Virus record (IMG/VR): IMGVR_UViG_3300021168_000052
Location: 1-42,479 of that record
Source of the DNA: a virus
Strand: one strand, 5' to 3'
DNA length: 42,479 nucleotides
The notes beneath the pieces are model-generated. The model saw only the letters and a program-made list of their open reading frames with translations. It searched no databases and had not been told where the DNA came from. The stretch's first letter is position 1; each line of letters opens with the position of its first letter. Both the position numbers and the translations under genes were made by a program. Below, piece after piece: positions 12,003-42,479 of this stretch.

Positions 12003-12005
12003 AAT

Positions 12006-12034
12006 TTGCAATCTCCATGCTCATTAAGTAATAT
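12006..12034 (+). promoter_or_regulatory. Candidate promoter for the HNH gene
   Basis: TTGCAA (12006-12011), a 17-base gap and TAATAT (12029-12034) place the expected transcription start at about the ATG at 12041, so the mRNA would be leaderless. Each box is a 4/6 match. Moderate support only. Confidence 0.4.
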
Positions 12035-12040
12035 TTAGAC

Positions 12041-16688: not shown

Positions 16689-17183
16689 TTAAAGCCACCT
16701 GCATTCATGCTTTAGCATACCCATGATAATGATGTCCTCGCCATTGAATGCGGCTTGCCTTAAACGCCCGCATTCGGTGAATCCTAAGTGACTACAGAGT
16801 TTGAGCGATTTGGTATTGTCTTCATCGATGGTGCAGCCGATATGGCGCACTCTCCAAGCAATGAACGGATTATAGAAAATCGCATGCAGGAACTTCTCAT
16901 TCATGCGCCCCTCGATCGCAATAGACGCAAAGACGTTCCCACCGCTATAGTTGGTATAGATGACCCCGGCCCGGAGAGCCCCACTTACTTCCAAGCCAAT
17001 CCCTCGAGGTTCACTCCCCCAGCCGTAGAAATGCGGCATCAGACTCGCGCACCAGTCGGCAATCCGCTGATGTTCATCGAAAACAAGCCTAGAGGGGGCC
17101 TCCAGGCTCGAACATATAGTCGGTTGAGAACCAGTTGGCGGCCACTCCGTTGGTTTGCAGTGTGATTCGACCGGATGCGACAT
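16689..17183 (-). CDS. GNAT-type acetyltransferase, ~164 aa
   Basis: The C-terminal two thirds (AGVIYTNYSGGNVFASIAIEGRMNEKFLHAIFYNPFIAWRVRHIGCTIDEDNTKSLKLCSHLGFTECGRLRQA) match the GNAT fold: a beta strand, then an N..SLKL..HLGF signature typical of acetyl-CoA-dependent acetyltransferases in phage virion clusters. The ATG at 17183 overlaps the tail-hub gene by 94 bases and has AGGA upstream. A later start after the hub stop is possible, but no good codon is visible. The substrate is unknown; modification of a virion or host protein is possible. Confidence 0.7.
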   Translation of the reverse strand: MSHPVESHCKPTEWPPTGSQPTICSSLEAPSRLVFDEHQRIADWCASLMPHFYGWGSEPRGIGLEVSGALRAGVIYTNYSGGNVFASIAIEGRMNEKFLHAIFYNPFIAWRVRHIGCTIDEDNTKSLKLCSHLGFTECGRLRQAAFNGEDIIIMGMLKHECRWL

Positions 17184-18591
17184 AGCCTAGTCCTGCGATA
17201 CCCTGCCAATTGGAGATGAAGATATTGCCCGTAGCCCAGGGAGATGTGTTCCAGGGGCTTGAATTCCACGGACTCCCTGCAGCTGAATTGACCGTTGTCG
17301 GCGAGCCTTGTATATCTCGCCAGTCCACATTAAGCGTCACCGTGGGCACAAGGTTGGAATTGCTTTGAAAGATCGGCCGCGCCATCACAAAGCGTTTTTC
17401 CACCCCAGGCTTCTCAAAATACGAAAATGCCGGCTTGCAATCCTCAAGAATTGCCATGCCCGCATCCGATTGGCCCTGATCGGCTAAAAATACTTGGGTA
17501 TTCTCGCCGTAATAGAGGGAATCCTGTTGTAGTTCCCAGCAATTGGCATTCCAGTTCCTAAAGCGGCACCAAGCGCGAGAGATGGGGTTTTGCACCCATT
17601 GATGTGCAGTGGTATTGGTGACTTCCGGCACGTTGACAATAATCTTGTTGCCTAGCGGGTAGTCAATGACCTGCCATCCGAAGTTCGCATTGTAGTTCTG
17701 CACATCGGCATTAATCGCGTTCAAAATCTTGAAGGTCAGCTGCTTGTCCGCATCGACCCGGTCGGTTAAGACTGCGGCATTCAATGAGGTGAGTCCATCG
17801 GCAGTAATGACCGCGATATCGGAAGCAAGTTTCGTATAGCAGCGCCGGCCGATAGGACGGCCTATCCTAAAGATTCCCACCAATGACCAGGTGGAGACTT
17901 GGGAGGGGTCATAGCCCTGATACAGAGCTACCTCGCCCTCGGTCGTGATGAAGGCGGCATAATCACTGATACCGGCCACGTTCTGAATGGTCCAGGACGC
18001 CATCTGCATCAAATAGCCGCCCATCTTAAACAAGGTTCCTAGTGGCAGCAGCGTGAGTGCCCCTTGAAAGCCGGTAATGGGCGCATACCAGACATTCATG
18101 GTATTGTTTTCGATATACCAGCAGCGCTGCTGATGCACAGTGATCGTGATCAGATTCGCAGGCGATCCAGGCCCTGTCATCACACAGGCGTGCCAGCTAG
18201 TTCCATCGAAGTATTGCGGCGTATCGAGCCCGTTGACCCAGATCAGAAAATTTCCACCCCCCGCATTGAACATTGCATGCTGCAACTTATCGGTGGAAAG
18301 GCCGGTGACTACTGCAGCCCCTACCGCCCCTTGCGCGGTAATATCGTAAATCGCGGTCCCAGAGGCTGCCATCAACTTGCGCGTCGGCAAGCCGTTATAG
18401 GCCATCACCGTATTGACATGGGTCGGAAGCCCCGAGGCCCAGAGCTGCTTGCCATTGCGCAAAGACACATAGGATGGCTGGGGGAACCAGTTATCCATGA
18501 TGATCGCATCGGTAGGCGGCATGGCGGCCAAACTATCGCGAGCATTGACGCCACCGACACACGCCGGAACACTCACGGTTATGGATTTCAC
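17089..18591 (-). CDS. Tail hub / packaged-DNA stabilisation-like protein (P22 gp10-like), 500 aa
   Basis: The N-terminus (VNARDSLAAMPPTDAIIMDNWFPQPSYVSLRNGKQLWASGL) and the repeated short beta motifs (GTSWHACV, GGYLMQMASW, AAFITTEGEVALYQG) fit the beta-propeller-like podovirus tail proteins that close the portal after DNA packaging. The C-terminal region holds WNSSPWNTSPWATG. Its place downstream of the adaptor supports this. The assignment rests on layout and N-terminal pattern, not on a search. Confidence 0.7.
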   Translation of the reverse strand: MKSITVSVPACVGGVNARDSLAAMPPTDAIIMDNWFPQPSYVSLRNGKQLWASGLPTHVNTVMAYNGLPTRKLMAASGTAIYDITAQGAVGAAVVTGLSTDKLQHAMFNAGGGNFLIWVNGLDTPQYFDGTSWHACVMTGPGSPANLITITVHQQRCWYIENNTMNVWYAPITGFQGALTLLPLGTLFKMGGYLMQMASWTIQNVAGISDYAAFITTEGEVALYQGYDPSQVSTWSLVGIFRIGRPIGRRCYTKLASDIAVITADGLTSLNAAVLTDRVDADKQLTFKILNAINADVQNYNANFGWQVIDYPLGNKIIVNVPEVTNTTAHQWVQNPISRAWCRFRNWNANCWELQQDSLYYGENTQVFLADQGQSDAGMAILEDCKPAFSYFEKPGVEKRFVMARPIFQSNSNLVPTVTLNVDWRDIQGSPTTVNSAAGSPWNSSPWNTSPWATGNIFISNWQGIAGLGYVASGRITLQTNGVAANWFSTDYMFEPGGPL

Positions 18592-19169
18592 TTCGTTTTC
18601 TCCAAGATAGCGCGGGCTATATCTATCATTACGGCGTCAGAATCTTCGCCTTTGAAACGATTTACAATCCACAATACGAAGCGACTATTTCCCTGCGTAT
18701 AACCTTTAGTTGGGTCAATTCGATCAAGTGATATTGAATATGGATTCGTTTTCCCATTGGAAACGAACTCCAATCCGGTGAATTCGCAACGTCCTGTAAA
18801 TCGCGATTTGGCCCAGTCGTGAGTAAGAGAACATTCAATAGAAGCCTCTTTTGCGCGACGCCGTGCTTTTTCTATTGCTCTTACCCATGGTCGTTCAGCT
18901 CTATAAAGCCGATCATATTGAGCGAGTTTCAATTTATTATTATCGCGCCACTGCTTATGCCGTTTTTTATAAGCGGCAAGAGATTCAGGACTACGTTTGT
19001 ACAGTTCTCGTATCTTAGAATTACGCCTCGTTCTAATCTCTGGATCAATTTGCAGATTAAGCCGCTGGCGCAATTTATCTCGTTCTCGATATTCCCTGAC
19101 CTTCTCAGGATTGGCCGCTAGCCATTTTCTATGATGTTCTCGCTGTCGTTCTGATGTAATGTATTCCAT
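18588..19169 (-). CDS. HNH-type homing endonuclease, 193 aa
   Basis: The N-terminal half is a long basic helical region (REHHRKWLAANPEKVREYRERDKLRQRLN... AAYKKRHKQWRDNNKLKLAQYD) that probably wraps DNA. The C-terminal nuclease part reads CEFTGLEF, then SISLDRIDPTKGYTQGNSRFVLWIVNRFKG. That SLDRID..KGYT..N signature is a known HNH-like endonuclease pattern. Low-GC DNA compared with its neighbours, its own promoter and insertion between two virion genes mark it as a mobile gene. Its stop overlaps the tail-hub start by four bases. Confidence 0.75.
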   Translation of the reverse strand: MEYITSERQREHHRKWLAANPEKVREYRERDKLRQRLNLQIDPEIRTRRNSKIRELYKRSPESLAAYKKRHKQWRDNNKLKLAQYDRLYRAERPWVRAIEKARRRAKEASIECSLTHDWAKSRFTGRCEFTGLEFVSNGKTNPYSISLDRIDPTKGYTQGNSRFVLWIVNRFKGEDSDAVMIDIARAILEKTK

Positions 19170-20161: not shown

Positions 20162-20820
20162 GCCGCATCTTTCTTCTTATGCATGGAGTTGATCTGCGCC
20201 TGCATGCCCTCGATCTGCTTTTCGAGGGCTTTGACCCGCTCCTCAGCCTTACTCGCCTTTTCCTGCTCCTTGGTGGCTAGGCTCATCAGTTCCGATTCAT
20301 CCAAAGCAGCTTTTGCCATGTCCCGAAACTTTCTGCCCCCCATGATATTGGAGGCGGCCTGATCGGAAAGCCCAGCGAGGGCTTCCACGGTGGGAATGTT
20401 CAGCCCTTTGAGGCTTTCAGCAAAAGAGCGTGTAATAGCGCCCCACTCAGAGATATCCCAGCCCTTATCGATTTTCTCGCCCTTTTTAACAAAAAGTGCC
20501 CAAGCTTCCGGATACTTGGTAGGATCTGATTCCCCTTCCGCATCATCGATTTCCCAGCCATCTTGCTCGTACTCCTCCTCGGAAATCTTTTTATACTTAG
20601 GGGTTACCCCGCGGGCGAGCATGTCCCAAACCGTTTTGGTATTGCCGGGAGAGACGATATTTACATAGACGCGATCCTCATAGTATGGGTACCCCTGCTC
20701 CTTTGAGATGGCTTCCATGAGGACTGGCTTTGCGTAGAAGCGCACCAGCAAGCCTTTCTCCGTGCCATAGATGACCTTGCCGCCGACGCCCAACGTCTGG
20801 GGTGATGCAAATTCGCTCAT
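20158..20820 (-). CDS. Hypothetical head-associated protein, 220 aa
   Basis: Start at the ATG overlapping the upstream stop (ATGA), with GAAGG upstream, rather than the in-frame codon at 20835. The N-terminal domain is soluble and beta-rich (FASPQTLGVGGKVIYGTEKGLLVRFYAKPVLMEAI). The middle has a short helix-hairpin-helix-like stretch (NIPTVEALAGLSDQAASNIMGGRKFRDMA). The C-terminus is a coiled coil (ATKEQEKASKAEERVKALEKQIEGMQAQINSMHKKK). Its place between coat-type and adaptor genes suggests a head role. Confidence 0.6.
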   Translation of the reverse strand: MSEFASPQTLGVGGKVIYGTEKGLLVRFYAKPVLMEAISKEQGYPYYEDRVYVNIVSPGNTKTVWDMLARGVTPKYKKISEEEYEQDGWEIDDAEGESDPTKYPEAWALFVKKGEKIDKGWDISEWGAITRSFAESLKGLNIPTVEALAGLSDQAASNIMGGRKFRDMAKAALDESELMSLATKEQEKASKAEERVKALEKQIEGMQAQINSMHKKKDAA

Positions 20821-22760
20821 AAATTCACCTTCCAAGTGTAATTTTCACCTAATTCAGGTAACCCAAAAGCTTCTTCAACTGCCTTCTTGACTCCCCAGCA
20901 GGGGAATTCCGTATTCTCGTAGTCATGGCCCGAGATAAAGCCGCCTGCTTTGATCTTAGGCCGCCACGCTTCAATGTCTGCCTTGCACCCTTGGTAAGAA
21001 TGATCTGCATCGATAAAAACGAAGTCCAGGCTCTTATCTGGGATCTCTTTGGCTGCATCTTGAGAATCCTTGCGCAAAATCTTAGCCCGCGGGCCTGCAA
21101 AATAGATCATCTGATGGGTGATCCGGTAATAGCGCTCTTGCTGCTCTTGGGTGAGGCTCGCATGAAAATCACCGGATTCAACGTACTGCGGCTTATGATC
21201 CGCACTCCAGGAATCGACTAGGTATAAAGTCAAATCCTGACGGCTTAGGAGGCGCCTGGACAGCTCCCCGGCGAATACCCCTATCTCAGCCCCCACGGGG
21301 TCACTTTTGCCCTCAAGCCACGTGAGAAGCGCTTTAGCGCGTAGATCCGCGGCACTCGAGGCAGGCTCAAAGTGATTGGCGAGTGTCGGAATCAATCCCT
21401 TGCCATAGACCGTAATCTCACAGCCTAGCTGGGCAAGTTGGCTAACCAGCGGGATGAACTGCTGGCTCTGCTGGATCATCCAGGGGGCGCATTTGAAAGT
21501 CTCGCCATGGGCCTGCACATCAAGTACAAGTTCGCCGTCGTTCAAGGCTTGGTGGTAGGCGTGATGTTCGCCGTCCTGATAGCAGGAATCGAAGCCAAAA
21601 AGAAAGAACTGCCGATGTCCTAGGATATAAGCCAAGGACAGGGCATTAAGCCCGATGGTCGAACCCCCCGATACCATCGTCATGCCCTTATCGTTATCGC
21701 CAATGGCATCAATGACCGTCTCGCTGTGCGGATGCCAGCAAATGAGCCGACCTTCCGCTGCATCCAATACCTCCGGGTGACACTGCGAGGCGTAATAGCA
21801 GATCGTATCGACTTTGGGCACAAAGCTTAAATTGCCAAGCCGTGCATCGTGCATCACATGCGCATCGGGAGTCACCCCGCGTTCGCGCAGGTAATCAAAC
21901 GTGTTGTTCGTGGCAAAGACCACGGCCCCGGATAGCTGCCAGCCGCGGATACGCCAGATATCATGCTCTAAGCTTGGGCCACCACCCACGATGATCGCAG
22001 GGTATGGCGTGCCATCCCGCATTTCGATCCATCGAGGCTTACTTAAGGCATATTTGATGTTCTTGCGCAGTTCTTGCTCCTTCACATTCATCGCAAAGAA
22101 CATCGTTTCATTGGAGACTTTCCAGACATCCTTCACCCAGTTAAAACATTGGTGAGGCGAGGGAAAGCCATGAAAGAACACCACAGAGGTGCCTTTCGGT
22201 ACAAATTCGGTGCAATCGACCTTGTAGGAGCGAAATGCACCAGGATATAGCTTCTGCCAAAGATCAGCCTGAGGATAGAATTGCTCTATCCAGATTTGAT
22301 CACCGCCTTCAATATCAGGGAATCCCGCGTTCTCAAACCCTACCCACAGATCCGTCATTGTGCCTGCTTCCCACGCCATCACCGAGGACTGTAAGCCATC
22401 GGGTCGATAGACATCCCGCAGGATTGCAAAGGGACCGGCATAAGCCGCAATATCATCCAAGGGACCGGTTATTACCGTGTCTAAATCGAAATAGAGTACG
22501 CGCTCACCTTGTCTGAAAGCGTGTTCGCTGAATAAGTACAGCTTATTCCACCAACCTTCTAACCCTTCAGGCAGAAGCTTGGTCTGAACGCCGGCCATAT
22601 GGTCAAAATCCGCGGGGTTATCCGTGAACACCGTAAAGCGTCCACGAAGCCCCGCGGCCAAATTGCGTCTGACCATCGAATACAAAATCTCCACTGCTTC
22701 CACCGCTCTACCGTCCATATAGGTGTCGGCATTGACGCAAACGCAGCAGATATTGAGCAT
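20817..22760 (-). CDS. Three-domain glycosyltransferase-DUF115-methyltransferase fusion, 647 aa
   Basis: Residues 1-215 form a GT-A type glycosyltransferase with the metal-binding DxD in LYFDLDTVITG (Asp92, Asp94) and a late FFHGFPSPH. Residues ~250-460 match the DUF115 / MptE-like family (AIIVGGGPSLEHD at 255-267, VFATNNT, FFLFGFDSCY), often found with surface-glycan and flagellin glycosylation. Residues ~485-647 are a class I SAM methyltransferase (GAEIGVFAGE, 490-499; DFVFIDADHSYQG, 579-591; GGFISGHDY). ATG at 22760 overlaps the decoration-gene stop. Location among head genes suggests sugar decoration of the virion, or of a host glycan receptor. The acceptor is not known. Confidence 0.8.
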   Translation of the reverse strand: MLNICCVCVNADTYMDGRAVEAVEILYSMVRRNLAAGLRGRFTVFTDNPADFDHMAGVQTKLLPEGLEGWWNKLYLFSEHAFRQGERVLYFDLDTVITGPLDDIAAYAGPFAILRDVYRPDGLQSSVMAWEAGTMTDLWVGFENAGFPDIEGGDQIWIEQFYPQADLWQKLYPGAFRSYKVDCTEFVPKGTSVVFFHGFPSPHQCFNWVKDVWKVSNETMFFAMNVKEQELRKNIKYALSKPRWIEMRDGTPYPAIIVGGGPSLEHDIWRIRGWQLSGAVVFATNNTFDYLRERGVTPDAHVMHDARLGNLSFVPKVDTICYYASQCHPEVLDAAEGRLICWHPHSETVIDAIGDNDKGMTMVSGGSTIGLNALSLAYILGHRQFFLFGFDSCYQDGEHHAYHQALNDGELVLDVQAHGETFKCAPWMIQQSQQFIPLVSQLAQLGCEITVYGKGLIPTLANHFEPASSAADLRAKALLTWLEGKSDPVGAEIGVFAGELSRRLLSRQDLTLYLVDSWSADHKPQYVESGDFHASLTQEQQERYYRITHQMIYFAGPRAKILRKDSQDAAKEIPDKSLDFVFIDADHSYQGCKADIEAWRPKIKAGGFISGHDYENTEFPCWGVKKAVEEAFGLPELGENYTWKVNL

Positions 22761-23413
22761 CAAATAGCCGTGATCTTATTGGGCCGATCGTACCAGACCA
22801 ATGCGCAACTGATGGTTGCACTATTGGATGAGGCAAAGCGGGCACCAATGAGTTCCGTTCCAACCGCAGATGTGACCATGACCCGCCCAGCAGTCGCCGA
22901 TACGAATACACGGCCATTCAGGGTGTGAATAACGGCAGTCTTTAAGGTCTGCGCGATACCCACCAATTGGAACCAGGCGTATTGGATCGAAGTGGCATTG
23001 CTCGTGATACCACCGGTTGCACCCGTGGTATTCGATACACACACCGCCCCGGGTTCACCACCCTTAGCGGTTGTCGGCATCACCGCCACCGTATAGTTAG
23101 CGAGTGACCCTGTAAACCAGGTCACCAGCGTCCCTAAGGGCACTGCAGTCGATAACGGCACAGCAAGGTAGATGAACTCGCCATAGCCCAAGGTAGGCTC
23201 CCAGCCGGCCACAATCTGCCCCAACACGGGCTGAAAGATAGGCCGCGGCGCAATGGAGGTTGTAATGGTATTGATGCCAGAGCCTGGACCAACTCCAGGT
23301 GCATCGAGGGATACCACGCACAGATCCAGATCGCCAATGAGCGGGGTGAAAGTACTCCAGTTGTACGTAACCGCAGCATTGACTTGCGGGCTTGCAAAAG
23401 TAAGTTTAGCCAT
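22760..23413 (-). CDS. Head decoration protein-like, 217 aa
   Basis: A beta-rich, Ala/Thr/Gly-rich protein directly downstream of the coat gene, the usual place for decoration or head-fibre proteins. Segments such as NGRVFVSATAGRVMVTSAVGTELIGARFASS resemble the small beta domains of such proteins. AAAGGAG precedes the ATG. No catalytic motif. Confidence 0.6.
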   Translation of the reverse strand: MAKLTFASPQVNAAVTYNWSTFTPLIGDLDLCVVSLDAPGVGPGSGINTITTSIAPRPIFQPVLGQIVAGWEPTLGYGEFIYLAVPLSTAVPLGTLVTWFTGSLANYTVAVMPTTAKGGEPGAVCVSNTTGATGGITSNATSIQYAWFQLVGIAQTLKTAVIHTLNGRVFVSATAGRVMVTSAVGTELIGARFASSNSATISCALVWYDRPNKITAI

Positions 23414-30314: not shown

Positions 30315-31691
30315 TTAAATTCGCTCCTGTCTTACCTTGTTTCGGTCTTTCGGCCAAAAGAGTTGATCGGCTGTCATATCCTCAAGGAATATCGGTTTGG
30401 GCTTCGGCTTCTCGGTCGAAGGGTTCTGCCACACCTGCCCAATGATCTCAAAGGCATCAGAGCCATGGCTTGCCCAGTCATGCCGCGGCTTAGACTTAAA
30501 CGCCTTCTTGTCCTCATCGAACTCAAACTGATACTGACGCAACGCCTCTATGCCATCGTGGCACTTTTCAAGATCGAACCAGCAGCGCTCAATGGTCTTG
30601 CGGCTGGCCTCGATGCTGTTCTGCTGGCTGGTTGCCGGGATCACCGACATTTTAACGCCCGCATTCCAGGCCTGATTGACGATGGATCGGCCCCCAGCCG
30701 CCATTAACTCATGCGCTGCATCATGCGGTACCCAGTGCCGCCCATAATTGTTATTATTGGCATATGGCTTGGCTTTCAGCACATCACAATAATGTTCGGT
30801 GCCTTGGCCGTTGTTCTCGTAATAATCAATCAGCCGTATCTCGCCATGCGTGATCTGCCAGAACCAAATAGCCGTCGAATCATCAAAACCCAAGTCCCAA
30901 GCTGTGTGTACAGGAAGAGCAGCATCATAAGGCACACTCCCGATGCGACCAGCATCAAGAGCAAGACGCATAGGAAGGCCATACACAGCCCCATGAATAG
31001 CCGCCTCAAAGCTGCATTCAAACTCCTGGGCATACTGATCCTCAGTCATCGATTGCCGGGCCGCTGCGAGCTCTTCATCAGGCAGTATCTTCGTGCGGCT
31101 GGCTTTTAGCATCACCGCAAACCAGTCCTGAGCCTTGGATGAGTGGTCCCAAATCTCCCAAAAGGCGTTCTTGCCCTTAGGGGTGCCAATGAAAACTGCC
31201 CAGCCTTTGCGATCAGTAAGGGCCGGTCTTATGACCTCAGACCATACCGAGGGCTTCATATCGGCGTACTCATCCATAATCACGCCATCGAAGTATAGGC
31301 CTCGGAGCGTATTGGGATTATCTGCGCCATAAAGCCGTATGGTCGCATCATTGAGCAATTTGACCGACAAGTCAGACTCTCTAGGTTCCTCTACCATGAT
31401 CGGGGCTGCAAAGTACTTCAAATACTCCCATGCCACCTGCTTAGCCTGTCCATAGAATGGGGCGATATAGGCATATCTGCCCCGTTCTTTCTTATCCGTG
31501 ATGGCACGCTTGATCAGTTCATTGATACAGGCCACCGTCTTACCTGCTCGCCGGTGAGCGACGATACAGCCCCATCGATGAGTACGGGCATGAAAGCCTT
31601 TGAAGTGCTCCCGAGGCGTATACGGGATGACTATCCGTCTAGGTGCCCCAGGTGATAAGGACGGGGCCTGTTGCAGTCTTGCCGTCGTCAT
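30315..31691 (-). CDS. terL: Terminase large subunit, 458 aa
   Basis: N-terminal ATPase: Walker A AHRRAGKT (45-52), Walker B GVIMDEYAD (136-144) with catalytic Glu141, and coupling motif FIGTPKG (168-174). C-terminal RNase H-like nuclease: TAWDLGFDDST (263-273) with Asp266 and a downstream Asp in DWASHGSDAFE. All parts are present and the length is usual. It packages DNA through the portal. It overlaps the small-subunit candidate by 53 bases. Confidence 0.93.
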   Translation of the reverse strand: MTTARLQQAPSLSPGAPRRIVIPYTPREHFKGFHARTHRWGCIVAHRRAGKTVACINELIKRAITDKKERGRYAYIAPFYGQAKQVAWEYLKYFAAPIMVEEPRESDLSVKLLNDATIRLYGADNPNTLRGLYFDGVIMDEYADMKPSVWSEVIRPALTDRKGWAVFIGTPKGKNAFWEIWDHSSKAQDWFAVMLKASRTKILPDEELAAARQSMTEDQYAQEFECSFEAAIHGAVYGLPMRLALDAGRIGSVPYDAALPVHTAWDLGFDDSTAIWFWQITHGEIRLIDYYENNGQGTEHYCDVLKAKPYANNNNYGRHWVPHDAAHELMAAGGRSIVNQAWNAGVKMSVIPATSQQNSIEASRKTIERCWFDLEKCHDGIEALRQYQFEFDEDKKAFKSKPRHDWASHGSDAFEIIGQVWQNPSTEKPKPKPIFLEDMTADQLFWPKDRNKVRQERI

Positions 31692-35663: not shown

Positions 35664-37588
35664 GGCGCGTGATTAACAAACCAAGGGAACATCAACTGTC
35701 CGTAGCCTGGGCTAGGTGTGCGATAACCGCTTGTGGCCGTGGATAGGGCACAACTGAAGTCATATCCATGCACATCGTACCAGCCGGCATTCGGTGTATA
35801 GGCATAGGCCACTAAGGAGGCTCCGTTAGCATCACACCATGCGGTCAGGGCTGACATCATAGGTGCCCCAACGATGCCCGTTCCGGTATGCTCCCCTGTC
35901 TCTGTGATGATGATCGGTACCTGCGGGCTTGTGGTCTTGATGGGCAAAAAGACCGAATTCCAGTTCGCTTGCACCGACTCGTTATTACCTTCGATCGTAA
36001 AGGTGACATTGAATGTAGCCCCTGTGCCTGAGCCTGAACTTGAGTATTGTGGAATCGGATTTGAGGGCAGATGATCGTATGCCCATACCCCCCCAACACC
36101 CACATTGAACTGACTGGTATTGCCGCCGGAAACCCCTGGCGTGCCTCCGACATAGCTGTTAATGCTGACGCCGCTCACCGCAGTACCACTGACGCTCGTG
36201 ACTTTAAGTTGTGCCTGCCAGTAGCAGTTTCCCGAAAGTGCCCCACCTGATTCATCCATCGCCAGCAAGATCGTATCGTTCACCGCGTAATTAGCACCTC
36301 CAGAGGCGACAGAGGTGACCGCAGTAATGCTCGAATACGCAGGATAGGGATGCCAGCAGCAGGCCATTTGCGAAGTCCACCCCGGGCCTGAATAACCCGT
36401 GGGGGCTACATTGTCGGTGGGCGCATTCGCCGCCCAGCTCGATAAGTCCTTGTTGTAGTCAAGCCCTGAAAGCAGACACGGATTCCAAGCCCCCGCAGTG
36501 CGAATGGCAGCCATCATCTGGGCGTGCCCTGCTACATACCAGCCATACTGGCCAGAATTCACATTTGCTATGGCAGCGGTGGCACCTGAGCTGCTTCCCG
36601 TAATCGTTGTCCCCACCGGGATAGGGATTGCGGTTGTAAATAAGTTCCCACTCGTATTCGTGCCCGTGACATTGAATACATGCAAGTATCGAGTGCCACT
36701 CGAGGCTAGCCCCGTAGTCGTATTCGTATAATCGCAGACTAATGTGCCGGCTGTACCATTAGTCGCCGTCCATGCCTCCCCAGGGGTAAAGGTGCCTGAC
36801 CCCCCAGTAATGGGAAGACCTGTCAGGTGAGTAAACGGGAAATTGCGCTGATAATAGCCGTTCCAGAAGCCGCCATTCATCAGCAGCGACCATGCTGAGC
36901 CACCGAACACAAATGGCTCATTGAAGAGCTCAAAGAGTACCGAACGATCGTCGATGGGGCCGCCGTTGCGCTTCAATTTCGTGCCATTCGGATATCCGTA
37001 CAGGTTTGCTATCGAGGTCCAGCACTGAATGCTGTGATCCTGATCGGCCATTGCATCCTGCCCATCGGTGATCAGAAGTCCAGGATGCGTGAATGCGAGG
37101 GTAAGAATCACGTAGCAATTAATGACATTCAGTTCCCGAATCTGCTCCGTAATCTGGTCCTGATACCCGCAGTGGGTGAAGGCCCCGAAGTTATTAGGAT
37201 TCGTGGCCACCCCCGCCATGTCATATTCGGTATATCCTAGCCAGCTGCCCTCATTGATCCCAATGCGCACACAATTAAATTTCCACCCCATCATAAAGGC
37301 AGGATCAGGCCCCACTGCCGTGACCCTGGCGGCAGCCCCTGCAAGGCCATTATCGGTGGCTTGCCGGTCATTGGGGCCCTGCCCGCCTGCCGCATCGGGA
37401 ACCCCCGAGGGGCTTAATGTGGCAGCCCCGCTTAGCATGCCGTAGGCGTGCTGCTGGATATTCATGCCACGAAGCTGGATAGGGGTATTGTGGCCGTTGA
37501 CGAAGCCCTGGCCATTGATCGCTACTGTGCCGTCATAGCCATAGACAGTGGTGCTCGGAACTAAACGTAAACTCTGACTCGCTCCCAC
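35660..37588 (-). CDS. GH5-like glycoside hydrolase (virion depolymerase candidate), 642 aa
   Basis: TIM-barrel endoglucanase pattern: LRGMNIQQHAYG (39-50), FNCVRIGIN (104-112) with Arg108, LFELFNEPF (218-226) with acid/base Glu224, WHPYP (412-416) as the conserved His/Tyr motif, and IITETGEH (560-567) with nucleophile Glu564. Two beta-rich inserts (about 250-345 and 420-540) interrupt the barrel and are probably substrate or anchoring modules. No signal peptide, so it is likely part of the virion. GTG start directly after the upstream stop. Substrate probably a beta-linked host or biofilm glucan-type polysaccharide; not proven. Confidence 0.75.
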   Translation of the reverse strand: MGASQSLRLVPSTTVYGYDGTVAINGQGFVNGHNTPIQLRGMNIQQHAYGMLSGAATLSPSGVPDAAGGQGPNDRQATDNGLAGAAARVTAVGPDPAFMMGWKFNCVRIGINEGSWLGYTEYDMAGVATNPNNFGAFTHCGYQDQITEQIRELNVINCYVILTLAFTHPGLLITDGQDAMADQDHSIQCWTSIANLYGYPNGTKLKRNGGPIDDRSVLFELFNEPFVFGGSAWSLLMNGGFWNGYYQRNFPFTHLTGLPITGGSGTFTPGEAWTATNGTAGTLVCDYTNTTTGLASSGTRYLHVFNVTGTNTSGNLFTTAIPIPVGTTITGSSSGATAAIANVNSGQYGWYVAGHAQMMAAIRTAGAWNPCLLSGLDYNKDLSSWAANAPTDNVAPTGYSGPGWTSQMACCWHPYPAYSSITAVTSVASGGANYAVNDTILLAMDESGGALSGNCYWQAQLKVTSVSGTAVSGVSINSYVGGTPGVSGGNTSQFNVGVGGVWAYDHLPSNPIPQYSSSGSGTGATFNVTFTIEGNNESVQANWNSVFLPIKTTSPQVPIIITETGEHTGTGIVGAPMMSALTAWCDANGASLVAYAYTPNAGWYDVHGYDFSCALSTATSGYRTPSPGYGQLMFPWFVNHAP

Positions 37589-38089
37589 TCACACGAGCTC
37601 ATAAATGATATGGCCTGAAACCGCACTTGCCACAGTTCCGGTATTGCCTGAATAGCTGCATTCGCCCAAGGAGGCGGTATTGCCGATAATCGTGATTTCC
37701 TCGTTCTGCCTCGCTTGCCAGCGCAACGCCCCGCCGAAGGCGTTGAAGCTGTGGTTGATCAAGTGCAAGGTCGCCGAACGCTGTGGGAAGGTCGTGGAAC
37801 TATTCGAGAATAGCGCCAGTGTACCGGGAGCCGTAGCAGTGGCATCCATGAGAGCATTATTCAGGCCTACACTGGTTAATGCAGTAGCGGCCACCGTACT
37901 ATCTCTGGCAAAATCATAGACCGTGACTGCCCCAGATGAAGCCTCGCCACCGATCTCGACTTCATTCACTTTAAGCTGCATGGTGCCAGAATTGCCGCCT
38001 AGGGCTGTATATTTGAGCGTGGTGAGCGCATTGGCATCGGCTGTAGCCACGGTCGCCTGCGATTGAAAAGACAGAGAATATCGAGCCAT
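37589..38089 (-). CDS. Beta-rich virion protein, 166 aa
   Basis: MARYSLSFQSQATVATADANALTTLKYTALGGNSG... Ala/Thr/Ser-rich with several beta strands and one conserved-looking RWQARQNEEITI strand, typical of minor head/tail proteins. Immediately upstream of the hydrolase. Confidence 0.55.
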   Translation of the reverse strand: MARYSLSFQSQATVATADANALTTLKYTALGGNSGTMQLKVNEVEIGGEASSGAVTVYDFARDSTVAATALTSVGLNNALMDATATAPGTLALFSNSSTTFPQRSATLHLINHSFNAFGGALRWQARQNEEITIIGNTASLGECSYSGNTGTVASAVSGHIIYELV

Positions 38090-38098
38090 TTTAACTCC

Positions 38099-38482
38099 TT
38101 AAGGGACGATGATGGTCGCCGCCGTACAAAGCGGTGACGAAAAGTTTTCAATCACAGGATTGACAGGGGATTTTTGCAAGAATCGATCCACCCGAAGCTT
38201 GAAGTTTCGGCACTCCCCGCCCGACTTGACCCGTACCGTTTCGCAGTCATCACACAGGTAGTGATTGCACTTAGGGCAGTAGCCGCGGGCGCGTGAGCGA
38301 TCCGGGTTCATGATGACCACCCGTTCGCAGTCCGCACAGGTGAAGGTAGCGGACTCAAAGATGGTATCCGGATGCGCGGCCCCTGCAGGGTAGCCGCCTT
38401 TGACCATCAGTTCATCGGGGACGCCGGGGGAGTACTTATGAGTCATCCATAAATACCCTTCGGTTGAGCGTAAAGACGACAT
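38099..38482 (-). CDS. Cys-rich zinc-ribbon protein, 127 aa
   Basis: Metal knuckles C49xxC52, C69xxC72 and C77xxC80 (TFTCADCERVV, YCPKCNHYLCDDC) predict two zinc sites. It is the first gene after the late promoter/terminator region and so would be the first late product. N-terminal segment MTHKYSPGVPDELMVKGGYPAGAAHPDT is polar. No known family named; a role in virion assembly or transcription is possible. Confidence 0.65.
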   Translation of the reverse strand: MSSLRSTEGYLWMTHKYSPGVPDELMVKGGYPAGAAHPDTIFESATFTCADCERVVIMNPDRSRARGYCPKCNHYLCDDCETVRVKSGGECRNFKLRVDRFLQKSPVNPVIENFSSPLCTAATIIVP

Positions 38483-38500
38483 TTTTTACCCCTAAAAATG

Positions 38501-38527
38501 CAAAAACCCGCATGAATTTGCGGGTTT
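38501..38527 (-). terminator. Rho-independent terminator, leftward
   Basis: A perfect 9-bp stem (AAACCCGCA at 38504-38512, TGCGGGTTT at 38519-38527) with a 6-base loop. In the leftward direction it is followed by a T-rich run (GGGTTTTTGCATTTTTAGG). It separates the antiterminator-side genes from the late operon, so it must be read through for late genes to be expressed, unless a further promoter exists. Confidence 0.8.
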
Positions 38528-38553
38528 CGGTGACAATTATTGAGCGGACCTGA

Positions 38554-38582
38554 TTTCTAGCACAAACTTAAAATAGATTCAA
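38554..38582 (-). promoter_or_regulatory. Candidate late promoter with extended -10
   Basis: On the minus strand: TTGAAT (38582-38577), a 17-base spacer, and TGCTAGAAA (38562-38554), an extended -10 with TG one base upstream of TAGAAA. It lies at the end of the GIY-YIG gene and ~25 bases upstream of the terminator hairpin, which resembles the promoter/terminator pair controlled by lambda-type Q proteins. Confidence 0.45.
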
Positions 38583-38989
38583 CTCAATAGGCGTTTTCCT
38601 GAGGCTATCGTATGAATAGTTCTCATATGGCCAGCCTTTAACGCGCTATAGCGATCATCATGAGCAGCCCAACCAGACACTATTTCATAAAGACGTTCCG
38701 CTGACTGATTTTTCATCAATTTTGCAAAAGCAATAGTCTTTGGACAACATTTAAACCATTCAAGTCGAACATGGAAGTCAGCCAATGCAATGTGCGTTAG
38801 TCGTTCTAATTCATATGCGGCAACCCGATCCAAAAGACCCGAAAAACTCAATGGAGTGATCAAAAATGGAGAACACATCTGTACGTGTTTAAGCCTATCT
38901 ATAGGGTTAGAACTAACACCAAATTTTATAAACTTTGTATTAGCTTCAAGACAAAAAGCATACAAATACATATGTGTTTTAACAGACAC
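38579..38989 (-). CDS. GIY-YIG-like (T5orf172/Mug113) nuclease, 136 aa
   Basis: MYLYAFCLEANTKFIKFGVSSNPIDRLKHVQMCSPFLITPLSFSG is the YLY...IKFGVSxNPxxRL pattern of the T5orf172 branch of GIY-YIG nucleases, followed by the usual YELERLTHIALADFHVRLEWFKCC. It is AT-richer than its neighbours and intrudes between the antiterminator-like gene and the late promoter, so it may be a selfish endonuclease. It overlaps the upstream gene by 11 bases. Confidence 0.75.
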   Translation of the reverse strand: MSVKTHMYLYAFCLEANTKFIKFGVSSNPIDRLKHVQMCSPFLITPLSFSGLLDRVAAYELERLTHIALADFHVRLEWFKCCPKTIAFAKLMKNQSAERLYEIVSGWAAHDDRYSALKAGHMRTIHTIASGKRLLS

Positions 38990-39341
38990 TTAGCCATCCT
39001 TTTAACTCAAAAACTAACTCATACTGGCGATGAACCTCCGCTTCCGCGGCTTTGAGCATCCGATGGATGCGAAAACGGCTGACCCCCACCTGTTCGGCTA
39101 GCTGCCCAAAGGTGCGGCGGCGGCACCAATACTGCACGATAAGATACCGCTGATCGTAGGAAAGCATGCACACCGCATGCTCCATCTCGGCGATACCATC
39201 GGGACAGTGAGTTTTACCATAAAGCGGGGTTTTAAGCGCACGTTCGCCGAACATCGGCGAAAATGAGGGATAATCGATCGACAGGCTTTCCCCCCAGCGG
39301 GACCAGGCGCGAAGGGCCTTAATGGTGCCTATGGGTATCAC
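38979..39341 (-). CDS. Antiterminator Q-like / late regulator, 120 aa
   Basis: The C-terminal part (MLSYDQRYLIVQYWCRRRTFGQLAEQVGVSRFRIHRMLKAAEAEVHRQYELVFELKGWL) has the sigma-70 region 4-like helix-turn-helix of several phage late regulators. GTG start in a GTGA overlap with the next micro-gene. Its position just before a promoter-terminator module and the virion genes is where Q acts in lambdoid phages. I call it Q-like, not Q, because sequence identity to a Q family is not established. Confidence 0.6.
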   Translation of the reverse strand: MIPIGTIKALRAWSRWGESLSIDYPSFSPMFGERALKTPLYGKTHCPDGIAEMEHAVCMLSYDQRYLIVQYWCRRRTFGQLAEQVGVSRFRIHRMLKAAEAEVHRQYELVFELKGWLSVC

Positions 39342-39445
39342 TGATCACCATCAAAATCGATCTTATCCTTTTGCTCTATCGCCCAGATCAGGCCCCACAC
39401 GGCGGCGTGCGCGACAACGGCAATTGCGAGGATGGCGCAGATCAT
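39338..39445 (-). CDS. Micro-membrane protein, 35 aa
   Basis: MICAILAIAVVAHAAVWGLIWAIEQKDKIDFDGDQ has one membrane helix and an acidic tail. It is coupled to both neighbours (ATGA overlap at the start with the nuclease stop, GTGA at its stop with the antiterminator start). Function unknown; the fit to the coupled run supports it. Confidence 0.55.
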   Translation of the reverse strand: MICAILAIAVVAHAAVWGLIWAIEQKDKIDFDGDQ

Positions 39446-39741
39446 TTAACCCACCCTTTGCGCTTTAAACGCATGCTAAAGGCCCACAGCACGTCTTCGA
39501 TAGAAAAGGCTGTGATGATGCCGCTACCCTTCCAGTCCTCCCTCAATCGTTTCTGGCGCCTCCCAGTGGCACTATTGGACCTGACATTACCTTTGGTCTT
39601 ACATTCGATCAGTAAATCCTCGCCGCACTTACCGGCCACAAGGTCAAAATCCCCTCGGACCTCGACCACGCTAAAGCCGGCTTCGCGTAAGCCATCACGA
39701 ATTGGACCGTGAGATTTGTCAACTCTCCTGGCGTATTGCAT
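39442..39741 (-). CDS. Nuclease-like protein (VRR-NUC / resolvase type), 99 aa
   Basis: GLREAGFSVVEVRGDFDLVAGKCGEDLLIECKTKGNVRS has the restriction-enzyme-like PD-(D/E)xK core (Asp32 in FDLV, ECK about 14 residues later), typical of phage Holliday-junction or VRR-NUC-type nucleases. It overlaps the upstream gene by 23 bases. It could process replication or packaging intermediates. Confidence 0.65.
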   Translation of the reverse strand: MQYARRVDKSHGPIRDGLREAGFSVVEVRGDFDLVAGKCGEDLLIECKTKGNVRSNSATGRRQKRLREDWKGSGIITAFSIEDVLWAFSMRLKRKGWVK

Positions 39742-39919
39742 CTTGTTTCGCCAATTCCATCGCTTTGGATATCAAATCCGCTTGCCCCACCCTACGGCTG
39801 TGATCCCCCCAGTGCCAGACCGTCCAACCGTGAATGGAACGGAACAGCTTGTAGTCACCCCACTGGTAGGTATTTTCGTTAATGGCTTTCCAGACGCCGA
39901 TTGATCGATCCTTTTTCAT
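39719..39919 (-). CDS. Hypothetical protein, 66 aa
   Basis: MKKDRSIGVWKAINENTYQWGDYKLFRSIHGWTVWHWGDHSRRVGQADLISKAMELAKQ: a Trp-rich beta-hairpin followed by a helix. ATG overlaps the upstream stop (ATGA). No family recognised. Confidence 0.6.
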   Translation of the reverse strand: MKKDRSIGVWKAINENTYQWGDYKLFRSIHGWTVWHWGDHSRRVGQADLISKAMELAKQDAIRQES

Positions 39920-40071
39920 TCGAAGCAGCCCATGCGTGGGTCACTGCCAATGGAACCACGACGATGAGGAAACCACCAGCCGCCGCACAAGCACTTCTGC
40001 CGTTTATTACGCTTTTTCCTATTCACAATCCACTTCTTTGGGGGGGGCTTCCAACCGCGGCATACAGGCAT
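39916..40071 (-). CDS. Small basic Cys/His protein, 51 aa
   Basis: MPVCRGWKPPPKKWIVNRKKRNKRQKC..., then CLCGGWWFPHRRGSIGSDPRMGC. The C.CG..FPHR.GS pattern recurs, from memory, in small zinc-type phage proteins. The start overlaps the replication-gene stop (TGATG) and the stop overlaps the next ATG (ATGA), so it fills the gap exactly. A homopolymer run of eight G (plus strand, 40040-40047) lies inside. Confidence 0.55.
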   Translation of the reverse strand: MPVCRGWKPPPKKWIVNRKKRNKRQKCLCGGWWFPHRRGSIGSDPRMGCFE

Positions 40072-40628
40072 CACGAACGCCTCGCAAGCACTCTTTGCAT
40101 GGCTTCATGACTTTCAACTCTTTCCGCTGCCGACTCTTGAGGTTTCTCCGAAGAACCGTTATTTAACGGTCTCTGATTCTGAGTTTTAGTGTTAGTATCT
40201 GTCTGAGTATGAGTAGGTGTTGAGCGGTGTCCACCGGTGTCTGCCGGTGTCTTTCTTGCTTTATACCGTCGTACCTTTTCTGTGTTCCTACCATCTTCGA
40301 CCTGATCTTTACCGCTGGCTTTATCTCGATATTTTTGGATATTGACCACGCGCCAGCCCCAATTGCGGTCCGGATCGATTAGTACAAGCCTTGCGCCACC
40401 CTCAGCCTGCGAACGGCTTACAGGATCTGGTTGGCAAAATCGTTCAATACAGGCAGTTACATCTGCCAATGGCAAGCCGGTAACGGTGGCGATGTACTGT
40501 TGCGTTGCATCTATCTCACCGCGCCAATCAGCCATGCAAAGTAGCACAGGCCAGAGCCCTATATCCGGCCATTTCCCACAGAGAGTTCCGCGGACCAATG
40601 AACTGAAAAGAGGGGTATATCCGCTCAA
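40071..40628 (-). CDS. Replication-initiation-type winged-helix protein, 185 aa
   Basis: I start it at the TTG at 40628, which makes a TTGA overlap with the upstream stop; the longer frame to 40829 is implausible over the ribbon-helix-helix gene. SGYTPLFSSLVRGTLCGKWPDIGLWPVLLCMADWRGEIDATQQYIATVTGLPLADVTACIERFCQPDPVSRSQAEGGARLVLI... GWRVVNIQKYRDKA matches the small HTH domain of phage replication (O-type/replisome-organizer) proteins. The C-terminus is Thr/Asn/Gln-rich and probably disordered. No helicase or helicase loader was seen nearby. Confidence 0.7.
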   Translation of the reverse strand: MSGYTPLFSSLVRGTLCGKWPDIGLWPVLLCMADWRGEIDATQQYIATVTGLPLADVTACIERFCQPDPVSRSQAEGGARLVLIDPDRNWGWRVVNIQKYRDKASGKDQVEDGRNTEKVRRYKARKTPADTGGHRSTPTHTQTDTNTKTQNQRPLNNGSSEKPQESAAERVESHEAMQRVLARRS

Positions 40629-40822
40629 GTAAGATCCGGCGGATGCTCGCGCCGATAGCGCAAAGTGCGTAAATCTTCGTCCAGCTGCTCCGATCCGAGC
40701 AGTACACGTTCGAGATAATTGGCAACCGAACGGCTGTCCATCTCGGCGATTTCTTTGATATCGGTGAGTAAATCTCTGTCGACGTAAATGGTAGCCCGCG
40801 CTCTGTTTATTCCAACGGTCAT
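40625..40822 (-). CDS. Ribbon-helix-helix regulator, 65 aa
   Basis: ARATIYVDRDLLTDIKEIAEMDSRSVANYLERVLLG is a compact Arc/CopG-type ribbon-helix-helix: a strand (TIYVDRD), helix (LLTDIKEIAEM), turn and helix (SVANYLERVLL). Start taken at ATG 40822; a GTG at 40837 is possible. A 9-bp inverted repeat (40807-40859) spans this start, a likely auto-operator. Confidence 0.75.
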   Translation of the reverse strand: MTVGINRARATIYVDRDLLTDIKEIAEMDSRSVANYLERVLLGSEQLDEDLRTLRYRREHPPDLT

Positions 40823-40859
40823 ACCGCATTTTCGCACAGCTTACGACAGATTGGAATAA
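40807..40859. promoter_or_regulatory. Inverted repeat around the RHH gene start
   Basis: TTATTCCAA (40807-40815) and TTGGAATAA (40851-40859) form a perfect 9-bp inverted repeat with a 35-base spacer, spanning the start of the ribbon-helix-helix gene. This is a natural autoregulatory operator. Confidence 0.45.
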
Positions 40860-40863
40860 GGTG

Positions 40864-41058
40864 TTACGGCGGGCGGCAAGAGCAAGGTGGTGCCTTACTC
40901 AGCACGCTCCACACCGCCTTATTGCCTGATACGGTGCGGTAGGTGATGCTGGGATAGTTCCCGCTGCGGTTCATGCTCGTTTTCACGATCTTGCAGCGCT
41001 CACACTTCCAGCGGGCACTGAAGCCATCAGCCGCCGTGAGTTTCCACTTATGCTGCAT
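40864..41058 (-). CDS. Zinc-ribbon protein, 64 aa
   Basis: WKLTAADGFSARWKCERCKIVKTSMNRSGNYPSITYRTVSGN... ends in a CSC motif. The first CxxC and the final CxC form a single zinc site; small phage proteins with W-K..CxxC..Y..CxC occur near early regulatory genes. The start overlaps the upstream micro-gene by 11 bases. Confidence 0.6.
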   Translation of the reverse strand: MQHKWKLTAADGFSARWKCERCKIVKTSMNRSGNYPSITYRTVSGNKAVWSVLSKAPPCSCRPP

Positions 41059-41194
41059 CTTTGCGTCTTAAGTGCTCGAGCCAGTCAGCGCCACGCAGCC
41101 AGCAATACCAGAACTGCGCGAGCATGCACGGCAATACGGCAGGGTCGTGATCAACCACGGCCATTTCTGGTGCCTCTTTTTGCTGCTGATCCAT
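41048..41194 (-). CDS. Micro-ORF, 48 aa
   Basis: MDQQQKEAPEMAVVDHDPAVLPCMLAQFWYCWLRGADWLEHLRRKDAA: Trp- and Cys-containing, helical. The ATG lies inside the end of the repressor gene and the stop inside the zinc-ribbon gene. No family recognised, but it keeps the operon without gaps. Confidence 0.5.
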   Translation of the reverse strand: MDQQQKEAPEMAVVDHDPAVLPCMLAQFWYCWLRGADWLEHLRRKDAA

Positions 41195-41381
41195 TTAAGC
41201 TCTTGACCAATGCCTCTAACTTAATTCCTGTACGCCAACTAATATGTTCCAAAGTCTCTAGTCTTGGCTTCTTTTTGCCACTGAGCCATTTACTTACTGC
41301 AAATCGATCAACCCATAAATGCTTGGCTAAATCGCTCTGGTTGTAGCCCTGCTTTACCATGTAATCGCGCAATATTTGCAT
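41151..41381 (-). CDS. Cro/CI-family repressor, 76 aa
   Basis: ILRDYMVKQGYNQSDLAKHLWVDRFAVSKWLSGKKKPRLETLEHISWRTGIKLEALVK is a textbook XRE helix-turn-helix (NQSDLAKHLWVDRFAVSKWLSG). Start at ATG 41381; a TTG at 41411 is an alternative. It is the first gene of the leftward unit, facing a divergent region with two operator-like palindromes. It has no C-terminal cleavage or dimerisation domain, so it is Cro-sized rather than CI-sized. Confidence 0.75.
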   Translation of the reverse strand: MQILRDYMVKQGYNQSDLAKHLWVDRFAVSKWLSGKKKPRLETLEHISWRTGIKLEALVKSLNGSAAKRGTRNGRG

Positions 41382-41400
41382 ACTCTTGAGCGTACCATAG

Positions 41401-41420
41401 TGTGGTTTCAACGTGCAACA
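41401..41420. promoter_or_regulatory. Operator-like 20-bp palindrome O2
   Basis: Half-sites TGTGGT and GCAACA separated by 8 bases. It is nearly identical in layout to O1 at 41460. It lies just upstream of the repressor ATG, where it could control the leftward promoter. Confidence 0.5.
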
Positions 41421-41459
41421 AACTTTATTTCTCTTGGACTATTGCAATGGACAACAGAC

Positions 41460-41479
41460 TGTGGTCTTATGATGCCACA
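41460..41479. promoter_or_regulatory. Operator-like 20-bp palindrome O1 over a candidate -10
   Basis: TGTGGT-N8-GCCACA, with TATGAT (41468-41473) in its centre as a candidate rightward -10 for the gene at 41497. A weak -35 is not certain (TTGCAA at 41442 is 20 bases upstream). Repressor binding would block the rightward promoter. Confidence 0.5.
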
Positions 41480-41496
41480 CAAGTTAGGAGCCGCCA

Positions 41497-41688
41497 ATGG
41501 AACGAAACTACGAAGCCGAAGCCGACGCATCCGACCGCGCAGCCGCCGAGATCGAGCGCTTGGAAGACCTAGCCGACACACAGCGCATGGAGCTGCCTAG
41601 CGAGGCTGACATTCAAGCCAAAGTGGACGCGCAGGTGGATAAGTATATTGCACTGTACTGGGTCGACAGAGCTTTGGGGGCGAAATGA
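41497..41688 (+). CDS. First rightward early protein, 63 aa
   Basis: MERNYEAEADASDRAAAEIERLEDLADTQRMELPSEADIQAKVDAQVDKYIALYWVDRALGAK: acidic helical protein. AGGAG six bases upstream. Immediately after the operator region, so the earliest rightward product. Function unknown. Confidence 0.65.
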   Translation: MERNYEAEADASDRAAAEIERLEDLADTQRMELPSEADIQAKVDAQVDKYIALYWVDRALGAK

Positions 41689-41897
41689 GCGAAAGATATG
41701 CTTATCGAGTCATCGATTCACTGACCAAAGCCATGGCCACACTACCTGCAGGTGATCGCCCAAAAATTTGGTTTGCCGCTCTCGATATGGCAGAGGACTA
41801 TTTAAGCAACTACGATCCCACGCCCTGGTGCAATGTCTGCGGGGGCAATAACCCGGCAGCAGCGTGCAAGTGCGGCCCAACAGCGGAGAACGAATGA
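41685..41897 (+). CDS. Hypothetical protein with Cys knuckles, 70 aa
   Basis: Overlaps the previous stop (ATGA). A soluble helical start (YRVIDSLTKAMATLPAGDRPKIWFAALDMAEDYLSNYD) then CNVCGGNNPAAACKCG with CxxC and CxC, a probable zinc site. Not recognised. Confidence 0.65.
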   Translation: MSERYAYRVIDSLTKAMATLPAGDRPKIWFAALDMAEDYLSNYDPTPWCNVCGGNNPAAACKCGPTAENE

Positions 41898-42469
41898 TGA
41901 AAATCACTCAAGCACACGTCGATAAGATCCACACACTGCTCGATGCCGGCCTTGTCATCGGCGTAGGCAATCCTAAGCCCGGTGAGGCTTGCGTCGAAGC
42001 TGTCATTTGCATGGCTTTAGGCTTGCCTCACGGCGATAATCCTAAGTGCGTGCTGCCGTGTTTGCGCACACTCAAGATCAACTTGAATGACCGGAATTGG
42101 AGCTCTAACAAAGCTCGTGCGGAAGCCCTGCGCCGTCTTGCGATCGCACAATTGGGTAGCGATACCCTCGATGCCAAGGATTTCGTGACGCGCTTAGCGC
42201 GTATGACAATCCAAACCGTGGTTCCCGCAGCGCTGCGTTCTGCCGCCAAAGTACTCACGGGCGAGCATCCGACAAAACTCTTAGTCCTTGCCACAAAGTG
42301 TGAAAAGGAGCCCACGGAAGCGAATGCGAGAGAGGCACAAAAAGCCGCCGCCAACGCCGCCGCCTACGCCGCCACCAAAGACGAAGTGCTAGCTACCTTC
42401 GCTGAAAATGTGGTGCAAATCCTGATCGAAATGAAAGCACCCGGTTGTCAGTGGCTGGAGGCTGCATGA
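41894..42469 (+). CDS. Conserved phage hypothetical protein, 191 aa
   Basis: Start at ATG 41894 (ATGA overlap, GGAG six bases upstream). IHTLLDAGLVIGVGNPKPGEACVEAVICMALGLPHGDNPKCVLPCLRTLKINLNDRNWSSNKARAEALRRLAIAQLGS matches, from memory, a widely spread phage protein usually beside a pentapeptide-repeat gene. The last ~70 residues are Ala-rich (AREAQKAAANAAAYAATKDEV). Function unknown. It overlaps the pentapeptide start by four bases. Confidence 0.7.
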   Translation: MMKITQAHVDKIHTLLDAGLVIGVGNPKPGEACVEAVICMALGLPHGDNPKCVLPCLRTLKINLNDRNWSSNKARAEALRRLAIAQLGSDTLDAKDFVTRLARMTIQTVVPAALRSAAKVLTGEHPTKLLVLATKCEKEPTEANAREAQKAAANAAAYAATKDEVLATFAENVVQILIEMKAPGCQWLEAA

Positions 42470-42479
42470 ACTTTGCCGA
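42466..42479 (+). CDS. Start of the pentapeptide-repeat gene (continues at base 1)
   Basis: ATG AAC TTT GCC GA| joins T GCG TAC GTG at base 1, giving Met-Asn-Phe-Ala-Asp-Ala-Tyr-Val-Arg-Gly-Ala-Asp in frame with the repeats. The ATG overlaps the preceding stop (ATGA). Together with 1-412 this is one gene of about 141 aa. Confidence 0.85.

Follow-up and report, generated by a model that had tools for sequence, protein, structure and literature searches.

How does an uncultured bacterial virus switch on its virion genes, and how did a nuclease-like gene come to lie between the presumed regulator of that switch and the promoter it would serve? We addressed this in the virus record IMGVR_UViG_3300021168_000052, analyzed over its whole length (42,479 nt; hereafter the window). 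An initial annotation had described a sigma-4-like HTH protein, a promoter, a leftward terminator and the virion genes in an arrangement that mirrors lambda Q, pR' and tR', with a GIY-YIG gene wedged between regulator and promoter. Every part of this layout is present, and the coordinates and roles assigned to the parts were right:

From 41411 downwards, minus strand: early genes, leftward, before the regulator.
38979-39341, minus strand: Q-like regulator, 120 aa, GTG start, named from Pfam matches below the cut-off and from the predicted fold.
38579-38989, minus strand: GIY-YIG (MUG113/T5orf172) gene, 136 aa, GTG start, named from its domain matches.
38577-38582, minus strand: candidate -35 element TTGAAT, read from the sequence, which holds the GIY-YIG stop codon.
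38554-38559, minus strand: candidate -10 element TAGAAA, with TGC directly before it and a predicted start at 38547.
38529-38545, minus strand: 17-nt leader block, identical in the relative L002, which holds AATAAT (38541-38536), a candidate -10-like pause element.
38503-38528, minus strand: terminator hairpin with a stem of 10 pairs; a T-rich tract follows, to about 38495.
38099-38482, minus strand: first late gene, its product Zn-ribbon-like by eye, with its start codon 20 nt past the hairpin.
From 38482 on, minus strand: long run of virion genes, including terminase, portal and major head protein.
30315-31691, minus strand: terminase large subunit (phrog_2, 2e-40), in the same operon, downstream of the switch.

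The best explanation, and on balance probably the right one, is a Q switch like that of phage 21 into which a free-standing homing-endonuclease gene has been inserted. The layout is confirmed as an observation, and its interpretation as a Q switch plus insert is partly supported by the evidence below.

The regulator resembles both antitermination and sigma-4 families, at scores below or just over the cut-offs. With Phage_antitermQ (PF06530) it scored 22.3 bits against a cut-off of 26 (E 1.3e-4), and with Sigma70_r4 19.5 bits against 24.1 (E 7e-4). The regulator of L002, a contig of the related record G001, reached 24.1 bits with PF06530, again below 26, and 24.5 bits with Sigma70_r4, just over 24.1; phage 21 Q itself scored 67.3 bits with PF06530. 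As both regulators lie below the PF06530 gathering cut-off, we do not claim membership of that family. The sigma70-ECF model TIGR02937 matched the two proteins below its cut-off (E 4.4e-5 for the window, 3.5e-6 for L002). PHROG 79, an anti-termination protein Q-like family, matched the window regulator at E 0.0026 and phage 21 Q at 8.1e-6, the latter being a far better match to its own PHROG 943. Direct sequence comparison yielded little: tblastn of the regulator against 50,697 phage records found nothing at E 0.01 and, at E 10, 29 records with a best value of about E 1; phmmer against PDB returned no Q among its matches; hhalign with phage 21 Q gave a non-significant probability of 0.75 on a scale of 0-100; and scans of genome contigs with the regulator found no relative. 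L002 is the only relative found to carry this regulator.

The predicted structure points more specifically to phage 21. Five models were built on an alignment of the two sequences, with mean pLDDT values of 71 (70.9), 54, 45, 40 and 34, and residues 25-45 under 50. In VIA-align, entries of phage 21 Q took ranks 1-4 and 6, that is five of the top six rows, with Z-scores of 11.1 over 100 residues (6jny), 10.7 (6p18 and 6p1c), 10.3 (6p1a) and 9.1 (6p19). Their alignments cover 96-102 residues, and those of 6jny, 6p18, 6p1c and 6p1a span the model from residue 1 to 118 or 120. The best sigma-4 row has a Z-score of 9.4 over 70 residues, and the rows after the Q entries are mostly sigma-4 domains, mostly aligned over 60-80 residues. 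For mostly helical models such as these, Z-scores under about 13 may reflect only a common arrangement. With Foldseek alone, phage 21 Q came tenth (E 0.24; TM-score, on the model, 0.61), and nothing matched at E 0.001. In published work, phage 21 Q is a sigma-4-like protein to which an N-terminal helix is added (PMC6606751), and the regulator model shows, at modest confidence, the same succession of N-terminal helix, flexible part and sigma-4-like HTH. On the strength of this fold, the regulator would work most like the antiterminator Q of phage 21.

We then examined the DNA between the regulator and the virion genes. The pair TTGAAT-17-TAGAAA (38582-38554), which the initial annotation had named as the promoter before the terminator, is there in the sequence, with a predicted start near 38547. 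It has a matrix score of 9.1, as high as only seven of 42,453 minus-strand positions, itself included; locally, 11% of mononucleotide shuffles of its 87 nt reach the same best score. The pair was missing from the output of a stricter consensus scan, which found two promoter-like sites, against a shuffle mean of 6.0. The L002 counterpart, TTGCAC-17-TAATAA, is weak (score 4.6, with 94% of shuffles equal or better). With the same matrix, Q-late regions scored 8.1 in phage 21, 9.7 in HK639, 10.8 in Hafnia yong1 and 12.7 in HK75, with shuffle fractions of 0.18, 0.11, 0.02 and 0.01, respectively.

Downstream of the predicted start, AATAAT occupies the predicted positions +7 to +12 of the leader and may act as a -10-like pause element. 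Since the modules shared with L002 are about 80% identical, the identity of the leader block by itself is modest evidence for such an element; a scan of viral contigs with 16 nt of the block gave seven stretches, one of them the known relative (L008). The hairpin at 38528-38503 has a predicted energy of -14.8 kcal/mol (z -3.9, with none of 200 shuffles as good) and ranks third in stability among the 102 minus-strand sites scanned that combine a hairpin with a U-tract. Its L002 counterpart has -10.8 kcal/mol (z -2.8, four of 200 shuffles as good). The region 36000-42479 holds six terminator-like sites, which is not above chance (mean 7.5), so the case for the hairpin rests on its position and on its counterpart in L002. 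The virion operon begins after it, as had been proposed: the first start codon follows at 20 nt, a gap in which no predicted start has a promoter score above 2.4. Since no promoter-like site lies between hairpin and virion gene, transcription from upstream must pass the terminator, unless it starts inside the operon. For phage 21, a direct-repeat Q site is reported (PMC6606751). A test for a period-8 repeat, as a Q-binding element between -35 and -10, reached at best 3/7 in the window and 4/7 in L002; the test finds 6-7 of 7 in eight of ten named loci of the phage 21 type and is insensitive, since phage 21 itself scores only 4/7. No Rfam family reached its gathering threshold in the window.

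These ten loci, hand-picked from 60 listed of 92 records, are phage 21, HK639, HK75, Hafnia yong1, Edwardsiella GF-2, Proteus Pm34, Providencia PSTCR7lys, Enterobacter MII_001, Pasteurella Pmp4 and Salmonella L. HK97 and N15 were considered and left outside the count, as their loci carry other Q families. A hairpin was found in nine of the ten, beginning 16-78 nt past the Q stop codon, with no annotated gene between Q and hairpin in any of the nine. L002 shows this order as well: its regulator gene lies directly upstream of the candidate late promoter and the terminator, with 46 nt from regulator stop to hairpin. The GIY-YIG insert lengthens this distance to 451 nt in the window.

L002 offers a natural comparison for this insert. 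It holds the regulator, the leader block, the core of the hairpin stem and the first virion gene, and the GIY-YIG gene is missing. The two regulators are both 120 aa long and 87% identical, with only two of the last nine residues in agreement; the first virion gene is 97% identical in L010, on the same contig. In BLASTN, homology ends at 39007 and restarts at 38545, so that 461 nt of the window stand against 51 nt of L002. The net difference of 410 nt is about the size of the GIY-YIG gene. As the 51 nt of L002 hold the last codons of its regulator and its promoter, these were replaced too.

The gene between regulator and promoter is of the GIY-YIG type, as the initial annotation had read it, with matches to MUG113 (PF13455) at 31.9 bits against a cut-off of 22.3 and T5orf172 (PF10544) at 30.1 bits against 20. 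Its frame overlaps the 3' end of the regulator by 11 nt. R32 and E62 are identical in all three aligned proteins; by our own assignment they would be the motif B Arg and the motif D Glu, and hence candidate catalytic residues. Pfam recognized no DNA-binding module in residues 88-136, and the structure model of the protein has a mean pLDDT of only 37. At 38.4% GC the gene is the lowest of the 54 genes (mean 52.7%), and the three lowest GC3 values belong to it and to the nuclease genes at 12041-12484 and 18588-19169. PF13455 was found in one of the three kin records, the window's own, and G001 gave no MUG113 match. The relative without the gene and the low GC mark it as an insertion. A scan with the single window protein found no relative; the three-protein alignment led to four (L037-L040), in whose records PF06530 was found in 0/4 cases, so these give no second case of a Q/GIY-YIG pairing. 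Judged from its sequence, the gene is best read as a free-standing homing-endonuclease gene, predicted and probably selfish.

Other differences between the window and its kin concern nuclease genes and module borders. The endonuclease gene at 18588-19169 on the minus strand, between virion genes (phrog_3322, 4.6e-24), is absent in G001, which has at that site (L036, about 11932-12113) a short stretch with, by eye, an HTH-like tail. G001 in turn carries an HNH_3 gene (L002 1839-2309) inside the orthologue of 39719-39919 (window about 39829-39845); after it comes a diverged start of the interrupted gene with the frame restored, the start apparently having been supplied anew. The G001 orthologue of 17089-18591 has an in-frame, Gly-rich insertion of 88 codons (L036 12511-12774), in a stretch of G001 where Rfam gave no match.

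Another relative, L014, is 97% identical across the early region up to window position 39357 (L014 6563), 16 nt before the regulator start. Past this point its late module is another one, and PF06530 is unmatched in its record; regulator and late module appear to have been exchanged together. The loci that share the first or second virion gene (L011, L012, L013, L017 and L019) have other reading frames upstream, and L018 ends within the first virion gene. PF06530 matched in two of the eight records searched, those of the window and L002; the record of L013 is outside the eight. These loci are therefore unusable for footprinting the switch.

Several further features of the window were noted. 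L014 continues across both window ends (1 and 42479), which join near a stretch of tandem repeats; the record may therefore represent a circular or permuted genome that was opened within the repeat. An exosortase gene at 5918-6535 on the plus strand matches TIGR04178 and PF09721 over their cut-offs and TIGR04162 at E 3.7e-26, below its cut-off. Just upstream of it and overlapping it, the plus-strand frame 5421-5987 ends in PELDP, a hydrophobic stretch and KK, and by eye looks like a sorting substrate. The window also holds an RNA ligase-like gene at 3424-4047 on the plus strand (PF09414, 4.6e-7) and, among the virion genes, a 648-aa protein with MptE-like and Methyltransf_24 domains (20817-22763, minus strand).

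In the mechanism that we propose, early leftward transcription would make the Q-like protein and, from the overlapping frame, the GIY-YIG protein, and would end at the hairpin. RNA polymerase would also start near 38547 and pause in the leader at the candidate AATAAT element, and the leader RNA begun there would end at the hairpin after about 49 nt. Once enough Q-like protein had accumulated, it would load on the paused polymerase, which would then pass the hairpin and transcribe the virion operon. The GIY-YIG gene would have entered as a selfish element, which left the length of the regulator unchanged and its last codons different. Because the stop codon of the gene lies inside the -35 element, its clean loss would endanger a promoter that is essential in this scheme.

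Two parts of the earlier interpretation need to be adjusted. The reading as Q, late promoter and terminator stands, on the basis of the fold match to phage 21 Q, the layout in the relative and the promoterless gap between hairpin and virion gene, but phage 21 is a closer model than lambda. For the GIY-YIG gene, described as a homing element tied to late control, the insertion is borne out by the relative without the gene and by the low GC, but homing and a tie to late control go beyond the data. Its place upstream of the late promoter, in line with the regulator, makes expression together with the early genes most likely.

The regulator could also be a sigma-like protein or an activator that recruits or replaces the sigma factor at the late promoter, with a hairpin that does no more than end the early operon. 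Such a protein would fit the L002 score just over the Sigma70_r4 cut-off, the TIGR02937 matches of both regulators below theirs, and the sigma-4 domains that make up most of the fold rows after the Q entries. The 120 aa leave no sigma-2-like part, however, and phage 21 Q is itself built as a sigma-4-like domain with an extra N-terminal helix (PMC6606751). The Q entries also align over the whole model, the sigma domains mostly over a part of it, and in both phages the hairpin stands between promoter and first virion gene; we consider a sigma-like role rather doubtful. It is unlikely that 38500-38582 holds no regulated switch at all and that the early operon simply ends there, at an ordinary or leaky hairpin, with virion genes served by promoters inside their operon. 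The promoter evidence is modest, and minus-strand pairs with like scores do occur within the operon, for example with a start at 37598 (score 9.1), but this account has to face the first virion gene lying 20 nt past the hairpin with no promoter-like site between, and a layout that is kept in L002.

For the inserted gene, one alternative to homing is a conflict nuclease, directed at the host, at satellites or at other phages and kept because it benefits the phage. Phage ICP1 has a nuclease related to GIY-YIG/T5orf172 that reportedly targets a satellite (PMC8263062), and such a role would suit a protein in which Pfam recognized no DNA-binding module. We nevertheless regard it as fairly unlikely, given that the one relative lacks the gene, that nuclease genes were gained or lost at several places between the window phage and G001, and that its place at the junction and its low GC are in keeping with a mobile gene. 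The gene might also be an inactive relic, kept since the late promoter overlaps its end; the overlap of the -35 element with the stop codon and a length of only 136 aa agree with this, but the intact frame, the domains over cut-off and the identity of R32 and E62 in all three aligned proteins make a relic improbable. A more ambitious reading holds that the nuclease gene forms a transferable late-switch cassette and that its protein, acting at the -35 element, tunes late onset. A cut at the empty Q/promoter junction would then lead to co-conversion of the regulator's last codons and the upstream late promoter, and GIY-YIG protein bound beside the insertion site at the -35 element would adjust late onset, much as I-TevI acts as a repressor of the T4 late promoter from which it is expressed (PMC2988022). 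The cassette half is in line with the 461 nt replaced, which run from the last codons of the regulator through the gene and promoter as far as the leader block, and with the different late module that L014 has from just upstream of the regulator. Taken as a whole, we judge this reading quite improbable.

A phage-21-like Q switch with an inserted homing-endonuclease gene would mean that late switching of the phage 21 kind reaches a distant group of uncultured phages, whose regulator profile libraries scored below their cut-offs. As a natural pair, one with the insert and one lacking it, the window and L002 make it possible to ask in what way a selfish nuclease gene comes to lie between an antiterminator gene and its loading site while the phage stays viable. 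Should homing be borne out, the homing gene would carry an essential regulatory junction along with it.

The closest known switch is that of phage 21, whose record annotates Q at 4126-4611, the promoter at 4616-4641 and a 50-nt RNA at 4652-4701. Shared with it are the predicted N-terminal helix and sigma-4-like HTH, a regulator gene that, in L002, immediately precedes promoter and terminator, and a short terminated leader, 50 nt as annotated there and about 49 nt as predicted here. Unlike phage 21 Q, the window regulator has 120 rather than 161 aa, is 12-14% identical to it in structural alignments and falls below the PF06530 cut-off. No period-8 repeat was detected in the window, in a test that is weak given the 4/7 of phage 21, the GIY-YIG gene intervenes, and the hairpin is predicted at +20, compared with about +3 in phage 21 (from its record and a hairpin scan). 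AlpA of Pseudomonas aeruginosa is likewise a small HTH antiterminator with an intrinsic terminator nearby, 26 bp after the PA0807 start (PMC7969949), and works as one molecule on one site (PMC9371919). It differs in belonging to a chromosomal cell-death system, has no reported sequence homology to other antiterminators and was absent among the fold matches listed for the regulator model by Foldseek and VIA-align, an absence that is uninformative in itself.

The inserted gene, in turn, recalls the free-standing endonuclease genes of T4, which lie between genes, several of them using upstream promoters, and some of which contain promoters of the downstream gene (PMC2988022). Like T4 seg and mob genes, such as segG before gene 32, many of which are promoterless, it is inserted between genes and overlaps the promoter of the next one; the junction differs in consisting of an antiterminator gene and its target promoter, and cleavage is here a prediction. 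T5orf172/MUG113 homing genes of ICP1 and other phages have the same domain pair; T5orf172 genes often lie near essential genes, exchanged regions are flanked by nuclease genes, and related exchange regions differ in the nuclease genes they hold (PMC10448857). There the markers are terminase, ribonucleotide reductase, capsid and replisome genes, unlike here, and the terms "antiterminat" and "promoter" are absent from the main text of that paper. Among the open-licence papers listed, judged by title and start of abstract, none reported a GIY-YIG, homing or HNH endonuclease paired with an antiterminator or late promoter as here. The nearest layout in the literature found is that of the Variovorax phage VarioGold, in which a Q-like protein (PF06530 by HHpred) is followed shortly downstream, before the terminase genes, by an HNH gene; this is HNH rather than GIY-YIG, a 61-aa gene lies between, and the authors suggest a role in packaging (PMC9658991). 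Both parts of the locus described here are of known kinds, and their combination is new as far as the literature searched goes.
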